DNA of 35,208 nt, taken from positions 1 through 35,208 of the forward strand of contig PLBW01000063.1 in assembly GCA_003135475.1 (NCBI GenBank). The letters run 5' to 3'. Position 1 is the stretch's first letter, and each line of letters begins with the position of its first letter. The stretch is from Acidobacteriaceae bacterium. GTDB taxonomy: Bacteria > Acidobacteriota > Terriglobia > Terriglobales > Acidobacteriaceae. The notes under the pieces were generated by a model, which saw nothing but the letters and a program-made list of their open reading frames with translations, was not told where the DNA came from and searched no databases. The position numbers were made by a program, and so were the translations under genes. Shown piece by piece: positions 17,297-19,119 of the stretch.

Positions 17297-17610
17297 AGGG
17301 GCCTTCTTTCGGAAAGCGGTTCCTCTTAGTAAAGGCACAATCCATGCCAAACCAAGGAAGGCTTCTCGGCGATAACCTAAGTCGTTTAGATACAGAAGAT
17401 TAGTCCGGTGAACGATATCGGCAGCAGAGGCCCCCGGAGGCCGGTTTTGCGGCATATCACCCGCTCAAAGCGTTTTTTCCCTCCTGTTCCCACGGAAAGG
17501 GTATGGCGAAATCTGTCTTCGCGGAGTACAGTACTGTGGCCGTCAGTTAGCGGTGCTTTTGTACATATCCTGCTCCCCGAGAGGGTTGCTTTTCTGAGGG
17601 AATGAAAAAT
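17297..17610. other. Divergent intergenic stretch, hemA / cytochrome c
   Basis: It must hold the promoters of both genes. A short palindrome AGTACAGTACT is at 17525-17535. No promoter pair is clear enough to call. Confidence 0.45.
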
Positions 17611-17937
17611 ATGACGATGAAGTTACTGCAACGAATCGCTCTGTTCAGCTTGGTAATTGCACTCGCCCTGCCGCCGTTGGCTGTGGCGCAGGGTGGTATC
17701 GACACCTACAAGGCTAAATGTCAGGCGTGTCATGGCGCCGGAGGCATTCCCAGCGAGGGCATGGCCAAATCCATGGGATTGAAACCACTTGGCGGCCCTA
17801 GCGTGCAGTCGATATCGGACGCCGATTTGACCGCTGCGATCACCAATGGCAAAGGGAAAATGAAGGCCTTCAAAGGGACATTGACCGACGCGCAGATCAA
17901 AGACCTGGTTTCGTATATCCGCACATTGAAAAAGTAG
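17611..17937 (+). CDS. Small periplasmic c-type cytochrome
   Basis: The product of about 108 residues has a signal peptide (cut near AVA-Q27), one haem site CQACH (C37, C40, H41) and the likely axial Met in GKGKMKAF. The end, DAQIKDLVSYIRTLKK, is the usual last helix of class I cytochrome c. It should carry electrons in the periplasm. I choose ATG 17611 because GAGGGA is 9 bases upstream; ATG 17602 is immediately next to that site, though it would add only three residues. A terminator follows. The Tat-exported molybdo-hydroxylase operon lies 560 bases downstream on the same strand, so the cytochrome might be its acceptor; this is inference. Confidence 0.92.
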   Translation: MTMKLLQRIALFSLVIALALPPLAVAQGGIDTYKAKCQACHGAGGIPSEGMAKSMGLKPLGGPSVQSISDADLTAAITNGKGKMKAFKGTLTDAQIKDLVSYIRTLKK

Positions 17938-17964
17938 TTGCGCACTTCCTAATGACCCACTGGT

Positions 17965-17995
17965 CGGCGGCTCCCGCGGGAGTCGCCGATTTTTT
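17965..17995 (+). terminator. Intrinsic terminator of the cytochrome gene
   Basis: An 11-bp stem (CGGCGGCTCCC / GGGAGTCGCCG, one mismatch, loop GC) at 17965-17988 is followed by A and six T. It ends the cytochrome transcript before the hydroxylase operon. Confidence 0.85.
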
Positions 17996-18003
17996 CTTGC
18001 ATG

Positions 18004-18062
18004 GCTGTCATCTTGAGCGAAGCACGAGTCCGCCCTGGTGGAAGCGTGCGCAGTGGAAGGAC
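18004..18062. repeat. Dispersed intergenic repeat (GTCATC-TTGAGCGAAGC type)
   Basis: The start CTGTCATCTTGAGCGAAGC and end GTGGAAGGACC match a family of intergenic repeats I know from many soil bacterial genomes (usual form GTCATCCTGAGCGAAGC to CGAAGGACC). Only one copy is in the window, so the call rests on recognition. Confidence 0.45.
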
Positions 18063-18122
18063 CACCAGCAGACGCAAGCGAAATCGGCCCCATTGCGGCT
18101 AGTCTCACGAAACAATATGCGA

Positions 18123-18330
18123 TCAGCCCGAAGGGCGACATAATTCTAGCCCAGCACGTGAGTGCTGGGTTGGCATTATCAAATGAGACGAGTCCGGCCG
18201 GACGGCACCATCTGTTCAACATGTCACAAGTTACATTCAGGCAGTGCCGTCCCTAAAGGGACTCAGTTCATCCAAGACGCTCACCCAGGACTCACGTCCT
18301 GGGCTACGATTGTGTCGCCCTTCGGGCTGA
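18123..18330. repeat. REPIN-like inverted repeat element
   Basis: The 48-base end at 18123-18170 is repeated in inverted form at 18283-18330 with five differences. Each end has two hairpins: GCCCGAAGGGC, and CCCAGCAC-GTGA-GTGCTGGG (left) or CCCAGGAC-GTGA-GTCCTGGG (right, read inverted). The last two differences compensate each other and keep the stem. Inner pairs GAGTCC...GGACGGCAC / GTGCCGTCC...GGACTC extend the symmetry to about 18220-18265. No transposase is nearby. It fills most of the 558-base gap before the hydroxylase operon. Confidence 0.85.
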
Positions 18331-18495
18331 GGAGTCGTCGCTTTCTCGCTTCGGTACCCTGAACACTACCGCCTTTCAATCCCGCGAAAAAATCCCTACC
18401 GCCGGTCCCTGCATCATCGTCTATCCCGGAGTTATACTCGCAAATTGCGAGCAAACTAACCTGCTCGGGTGAACAACCACCGCGATGGAGGCACG

Positions 18496-19119
18496 ATGAA
18501 AGACGATCCCACACGCAAGCCTGAAACCACCTCGGGTGTTTCGCGTCGCGATTTCATGAAGATTTCGGGCGTCGGCGTTGCGCTTCCGTTGGTGCTCGGC
18601 CCCAAGATGGTCGAAGCCGCTGGTGAGGAAGTGGCCGTCCATGGGCCGGGCAAGGTCCCAGTCGCGCTCACCGTCAACGGCAAGAAGTTGAGCGCGCAGT
18701 TGGAGCCGCGGGTCACGCTGCTGGATGCACTGCGCGACAACTTCGATTTGACCGGCGCGAAGCGCGTCTGTGACCGCGGGGTTTGCGGGGCCTGCACCGT
18801 GTTGATGGACGGCAAGACCGTCTATGCGTGCGCCGTGCTGGCCATCGATGCGCAAGGGAAAAACATCACCACCATCGAAGGTCTCGCTAAAGGCGACGCG
18901 TTAACTCCCGTCATGCAGGCTTTCGTCGCGCACGATGCCCAGCAGTGCGGCTTCTGCACACCGGGATTCATCGTCGCGACGACTCATTTCCTCGAGCAGC
19001 ACCCCAACCCCAACGCGGAGGACATTCGCCGCGGACTGAGCGGCAATTACTGCCGCTGTGGGACCTACAACGGAATTCGCGCCGTCGCTTTGGCCAAACC
19101 AGAAGGGAGGGCGTCATGA
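18496..19119 (+). CDS. Tat-exported 2Fe-2S subunit of molybdenum hydroxylase
   Basis: The 207-residue protein starts with a twin-arginine signal (SRRDFMK at 16-22, then a hydrophobic stretch), so the folded enzyme is exported. Then comes a plant-type [2Fe-2S] domain with C92, C97, C100 and C112 (CDRGVCGAC...YAC), and a helical [2Fe-2S] domain with C151, C154, C186 and C188 (CGFC...CRC). Both clusters are complete. It passes electrons from the Mo site to FAD or another acceptor. The set resembles periplasmic aldehyde oxidoreductase PaoABC (YagTSR) of E. coli and isoquinoline oxidoreductase-type enzymes, but gene order differs. ATG 18496 has GGAGG 4 bases upstream. Its TGA overlaps the next ATG (ATGA). 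Confidence 0.94.
   Translation: MKDDPTRKPETTSGVSRRDFMKISGVGVALPLVLGPKMVEAAGEEVAVHGPGKVPVALTVNGKKLSAQLEPRVTLLDALRDNFDLTGAKRVCDRGVCGACTVLMDGKTVYACAVLAIDAQGKNITTIEGLAKGDALTPVMQAFVAHDAQQCGFCTPGFIVATTHFLEQHPNPNAEDIRRGLSGNYCRCGTYNGIRAVALAKPEGRAS

Follow-up and report, generated by a model that had tools for sequence, protein, structure and literature searches.

The window analysed here is a 35,208-nucleotide stretch of DNA from an Acidobacteriaceae bacterium (contig PLBW01000063.1), and close to its middle lies a pair of inverted, structured ends. The outer part of the pair consists of two 48-nt arms (18123-18170 and 18283-18330) that are 90% complementary and differ at five sites, as a sequence-only reading of the locus had described. 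That reading also proposed that two of the five differences face each other in a hairpin stem and leave its pairing intact, and this is indeed the case: the middle stem has C18155-G18164 in the left arm and G18289-C18298 in the right arm. The arms it delimited stand, but its limits for the whole element, 18123-18330, are slightly short, and the repeated arm is longer than 48 nt, measuring approximately 87 nt on each side with a third, inner hairpin and leaving a core of only 35 nt. We refer to the ∼87 nt end with its three hairpins (A, outer; B, middle; C, inner) as the R unit. Our covariance model, R1, places the left unit on the minus strand at 18122-18208, with A, B and C following one another from the outside inwards on the plus strand (83.7 bits, E 2.2e-18 in a 913-kb search), and its inverted copy on the plus strand at 18244-18331 (93.9 bits, E 5.9e-21). 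These limits define the core, 18209-18243, which corresponds to the position of a transposase gene in full-length relatives.

In the left end, hairpin A reads GCCC-gaa-GGGC (18126-18136), hairpin B CCCAGCAC-gtga-GTGCTGGG (18150-18169) and hairpin C GTCC-ggcc-GGAC (18192-18203); their counterparts in the right end are GTCCC-taaa-GGGAC for C (18249-18262), CCCAGGAC-tcac-GTCCTGGG for B (18284-18303) and GCCC-ttc-GGGC for A (18317-18327). Across a 45-copy alignment, 83% of the cells of helix 3 (hairpin A), 98% of those of helix 2 (B) and 97.8% of those of helix 1 (C) are paired. Conservation across ends further defines a one-sided tag beside hairpin B, TAG at 18147-18149 on the left and CTA at 18304-18306 on the right. 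The fold of the window element is far more stable than expected from shuffled sequences (z = -10.3 as DNA and -13.6 as RNA, with 0 of 200 shuffles as stable), and the stem pattern CCCAGSACGTGAGTSCTGGG is matched in the window by this element only, against a shuffle mean of 0.02. Two neighbouring features lie outside the R units. Just to the left, at 18003-18063, is a second, unrelated dispersed repeat (TGTCATCTTGAGCG...GGAAGGACC) with 80-85% matches in the congeners G002, G008 and G003, and further upstream, at 17962-17991, a strong terminator-like hairpin (13 pairs followed by a T run) is found 3′ of the upstream gene and is conserved in congeners.

The R unit is a dispersed repeat. BLAST returned 42 matches in the window's genome, and the covariance model, which was built from 45 copies, detected at least 106 there, with 150 of 1076 candidates scored, and between 24 and 139 in each of eight congeners, so that all nine genomes of the genus contain dispersed copies. 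The proposal that the element is a REPIN-like inverted pair is thus borne out, as the genome search found it to be multicopy and not a single occurrence. The geometry of the copies was taken from a 913-kb genome sample that holds 53 of them and includes regions chosen for having R hits: the 28 clusters tabulated include, besides the window pair, four divergent pairs arranged like that of the window, two convergent pairs and a few tandem arrangements, and consist mostly of single units. Copies avoid predicted genes, with 37% of their length in predicted open reading frames against 86% expected, the prediction of reading frames being naive. Another abundant repeat family of the genus, with a unit of about 103 nt (TCATTACGAGCGAAGCGAGGAATCTGCTGTT...), was encountered at L258 6912-7014 and has dozens of matches in four congeners.

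Folding energy does not separate local hairpins from pairing between the two arms, and we therefore relied on covariation. In the covariance model of the 45 aligned copies, 94.5% of stem cells are paired and double changes occur in 12 of the 17 pairs, a result reached by none of 500 shuffles; shifted structures scored far below the true one. A comparison of the two arms of 39 two-arm elements, in an alignment that was itself fitted to the structure, found 90 stem cells at which the arms differ, of which 46 are compensated within each arm, 13 are one-sided and 31 are broken in an arm. The structure that has been kept is therefore the local hairpin and not arm-to-arm pairing. The suggestion that structure was preserved while sequence changed therefore holds across the family as well as between the arms of single elements. 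The tag is also widely retained: hairpin B is followed by CT in 87 of 90 ends and by CTA in most of them, whereas the bases preceding the hairpin are unconserved. Read on the opposite strand, the CTA forms a 5′ TAG foot, giving a tag of the form NTAG, which is GTAG in part of the copies.

Comparison of corresponding sites in close relatives, which the sequence-only reading had put forward as a check, revealed presence/absence polymorphism. A block of the window at approximately 18000-18371, comprising the element and the second repeat beside it, is missing in congener G006, where both flanks match, and the element was not found at the corresponding place in G002, G008 or G003. Other copies behave similarly: G006 lacks both the C88 pair and the C225 unit, G002 also lacks the C225 unit, and G008 lacks the C123 unit. 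Some copies, in contrast, are common to congeners, as exemplified by the C202 unit in G006 and G008. From these sequence comparisons gain and loss are not always separable. Occupied and empty sites yielded neither base-exact ends, nor a defined cleavage site, nor an insertion target, because the junctions carry extra bases or neighbouring repeats.

R is associated with one particular gene. The window's genome has ten Y1_Tnp matches, and at two of these loci, L036 and L037, R-like units lie inverted on both sides of the gene. In the genus as a whole, the covariance model detects an inverted pair of flanking R units at 13 of 14 loci of this IS200-like gene, and the transposase gene stands between inverted R units at L036, L037, L096 and L107-L115; the sole exception among the 14, L045, is a decayed gene copy that has kept its right end. 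All 11 linked proteins compared (11/11) match the IS200-type model NCBIfam NF033573, the first of them above its cut-off, and their nearest solved relatives are the TnpA proteins of ISHp608 (E 5e-12) and ISDra2. The linked protein is about 148 aa long, consists of the core only, has a WQ motif and is encoded at low copy number, the two full-length genes of the window's genome being 72% identical to each other. HxH, Y, and then Q and HH, which together give the motif Y---Q--HH, are invariant in the 11 genus proteins, and by comparison of this motif with the published signature the gene is a candidate member of TnpA-Y1 subclass 1.2. Some of the loci show local reiterations of the outer hairpin: at L096 4300-4376 an outer-hairpin segment, GGGCTACGATTGTGTCGCCCTTC, occurs three times in tandem and adjoins the right end of the full-length element, and at L037 1690-1890 a segment containing the outer hairpin, AGTCCCGCTTGCGGGACGAAAAATCTTAG, is present about three times beyond the end that lies upstream of the transposase gene.

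When public genomes were searched, 80 relatives of the gene were retrieved from Acidobacteriota, Planctomycetota, Verrucomicrobiota, Bacteroidota, Calditrichota, Desulfobacterota and other phyla; four of these relatives (L163, L164, L177 and L178) are the genus loci L108, L110, L111 and L112 and are not independent. The Y---Q--HH signature is present in 79 of the 80. R is detected by the model on both sides in approximately 39; in 67, the sequence upstream of the gene is an inverted repeat of that downstream, with z > 4 relative to base shuffles; and approximately 13 are without clear inverted ends. The architecture of the ends varies, with several Bacteroidota missing the middle stem and retaining a CTATAATC-like linker, and with a gene of the same type in Desulfococcaceae bacterium HSG8 lying within arrays in which a two-hairpin unit of ∼70 nt is tandemly repeated more than 25 times (L197 995-1438 and 1979-3450). 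In the family to which the window belongs, sampled as 70 genomes from 69 genera, R occurs in all 28 genomes that have the gene and in 20 of the 42 that lack it (Fisher p 7e-7, phylogeny ignored), and is absent from the other 22. Eight of these 42 genomes have at least 10 R units and no good gene match, which may reflect loss of the gene or another source of the repeats.

The outer part of the R unit corresponds to a family that is already catalogued. In the left end, hairpins B and A match Rfam RF01687, Acido-Lenti-1, on the minus strand at 18125-18169 with 39.0 bits, which exceeds the family's gathering score of 37; in the right end, the same two hairpins match it on the plus strand at 18284-18328 with 34.9 bits (E 3.2e-6), slightly short of that score. 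Rfam files RF01687 as a 46-nt sRNA gene of unknown function. The Rfam family and the R unit agree over hairpins B and A in both sequence and structure; in our elements, however, these two hairpins make up only the outward portion of a longer transposon end, which continues inwards into hairpin C. RF01687 is present at tnpA loci both in Acidobacteriota and in further phyla, frequently at each of the two ends, and was found at none of 19 other Y1 loci. Within a phylum sample it occurs in 35 of 149 genomes, three of which have at least 38 matches. In three open-licence papers, the passages naming Acido-Lenti-1 are silent on any association with a transposase, and one of the three states that no transposase was seen near the Tannerella genes.

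Several known systems share features with the one described here. One is the REPtron, a RAYT gene with its REPs or REPINs, in which a Y1 gene likewise lies between palindromic units in inverted orientation; these units are scattered outside genes, carry a one-sided unpaired tag and show compensatory stem changes. The transposase of the R system is nevertheless IS200-type and not RAYT, its unit has three hairpins in ∼87 nt in place of one hairpin in 20-40 nt, and its tag is (N)TAG or lies on the CTA side, whereas that of REPtrons is a strict GTAG. IS200/IS605 elements such as IS608 and ISDra2, together with their non-autonomous derivatives, have a related transposase and hairpins at their ends; no long inverted repeats are described for those ends, whereas R ends are inverted copies, and active IS copies are near-identical, unlike our two diverged full-length genes. 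TIRYTs (Di Nocera 2013, PMC3733652) and class 3 TnpA-Y1 (Quentin 2018) also comprise Y1 genes, some of them in Acidobacteria, that are flanked by long inverted repeats or by atypical structures with repeated copies, but they belong to other transposase classes, TIRYTs being mostly of subclass 2.1 and class 3 having Y----Q and a CnGA foot. Two further assignments were considered and set aside: the CGTC-REP class (PMC3733652), suggested by CGTCCC at the inner hairpin, has an unpaired class tag, whereas here GTC is in the stem, and Quentin class 3, suggested by the CnGA-like foot that precedes the inner hairpin and by Acidobacteria hosts, differs in protein motif. For subclass 1.2 itself, Quentin et al. 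2018 (PMC6006769) report the signature Y---Q--HH, list "no" REP in their Table 1, and describe members that are generally without terminal structures and come mainly from Cyanobacteria and Bacteroidetes. Our gene shares with that subclass the signature, the WQ motif, the length of ∼148 aa and the low copy number, and departs from the published description in having inverted multi-hairpin ends, dispersed copies and hosts in many phyla. REP-type repeats for subclass 1.2, of the REPtron kind, are new relative to the published tables.

These observations bear on several ways of reading the window element. Movement of a REPIN by a RAYT (TnpA-REP), as the sequence-only reading supposed, would fit an inverted palindromic pair that is present in many copies, mostly outside predicted genes, and RAYT-type genes do exist in the window's genome. 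Those genes, however, are without R: none of the 17 other Y1 loci of the genus has R within ∼1.5 kb, although three of them (L038, L039 and L042) pass the RAYT model, and the RAYT-type candidate L137 has different inverted palindromes of its own. The R-linked gene, for its part, falls far below the RAYT cut-off, the first linked protein scoring 29 bits against a cut-off of 80. What survives of the original proposal is a transposase of folded single strands of the Y1 (HuH, tyrosine) kind; its attribution to TnpA-REP/RAYT does not, and we regard that attribution as quite improbable. At L137 the other-type Y1 gene is flanked at 1209-1245 and 1892-1928 by the inverted palindrome CCCACTCATTCG...CGAATGAGTGGG, which seems to be a repeat specific to that gene.

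It is also conceivable, though unlikely, that Acido-Lenti-1 is genuinely a gene for a small RNA, or a cis-regulatory RNA, and happens here to be duplicated as an inverted pair. The Rfam match, RNA-like covariation and the account of Weinberg et al. 2010, in which Acido-Lenti-1 was rated a probable RNA, speak for such a function. Against it, folded single-stranded DNA predicts covariation equally, many genomes have the repeat in inverted orientation at the two ends of a transposase gene, and congeners differ in its presence and absence. A scan of 17500-18700, which is a weak test, found no promoter-like site. R may have a dual role as DNA end and transcript. A function as transcription terminator or mRNA stabiliser of the neighbouring genes would suit an element that is intergenic and palindromic, and REP-like DNA can acquire such roles after insertion. 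We nonetheless consider it very improbable as an explanation of this element, since the terminator-like site returned by the scan lies outside it, and since G006 retains the flanks but not the element, which was also not found at this position in three further congeners.

We conclude that the window very probably holds a non-autonomous derivative of a single-stranded DNA transposon system, whose relatives carry an IS200-type Y1 HuH gene between the same inverted ends. Those ends flank the gene, are dispersed in many copies, retain their local hairpins through compensated substitutions and vary in occupancy at corresponding sites of close relatives. We infer that Acido-Lenti-1 "RNAs" are the ends of such a transposon and of its transposase-less derivatives, of which the window element is one. 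In its broader form, the proposal that Acido-Lenti-1 is not an RNA gene but the single-stranded DNA recognition end of TnpA-Y1 subclass 1.2, in a REPtron-like system with composite multi-hairpin ends that extends over several bacterial phyla, seems to us reasonably likely.

As a mechanism for the transposon, we envisage that the transposase would bind the hairpins while the strand is single, during replication or repair, and that its tyrosine would cut near them, moving single R units or pairs in trans. Which of the two is the moving unit is uncertain, because most copies are single units. The gene is low-copy and diverged, with two examples that are 72% identical, in comparison with many R copies, which suggests, by analogy with REPtrons, that R moves in trans and the gene stays put. 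The TAG located 5′ of hairpin B, on the strand in which the outer hairpin comes first, may guide the cut, much as tetranucleotides do in IS200/IS605 elements and in REPs. In characterised systems, the last two bases of the GTAG of REPs are thought to select cutting at CT (PMC8266576), and since the TAG foot resembles the REP GTAG, cleavage is predicted at CT or at a nearby dinucleotide set by the foot.

The association connects an orphan transposase subclass, for which no cognate repeats had been reported, with an equally orphan "small RNA" family of unknown function, and it bears on genome annotation in that these ends are labelled as ncRNAs by annotation pipelines. According to a suggestion made in 2026 (PMC13298647), Acido-Lenti-1 elements may regulate Tannerella proteases, and for these elements the transposon reading provides another testable account. 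Finally, the progression from one-hairpin REPs to two- and three-hairpin ends offers a natural series for understanding how Y1 enzymes recognise folded DNA and choose their cut sites.
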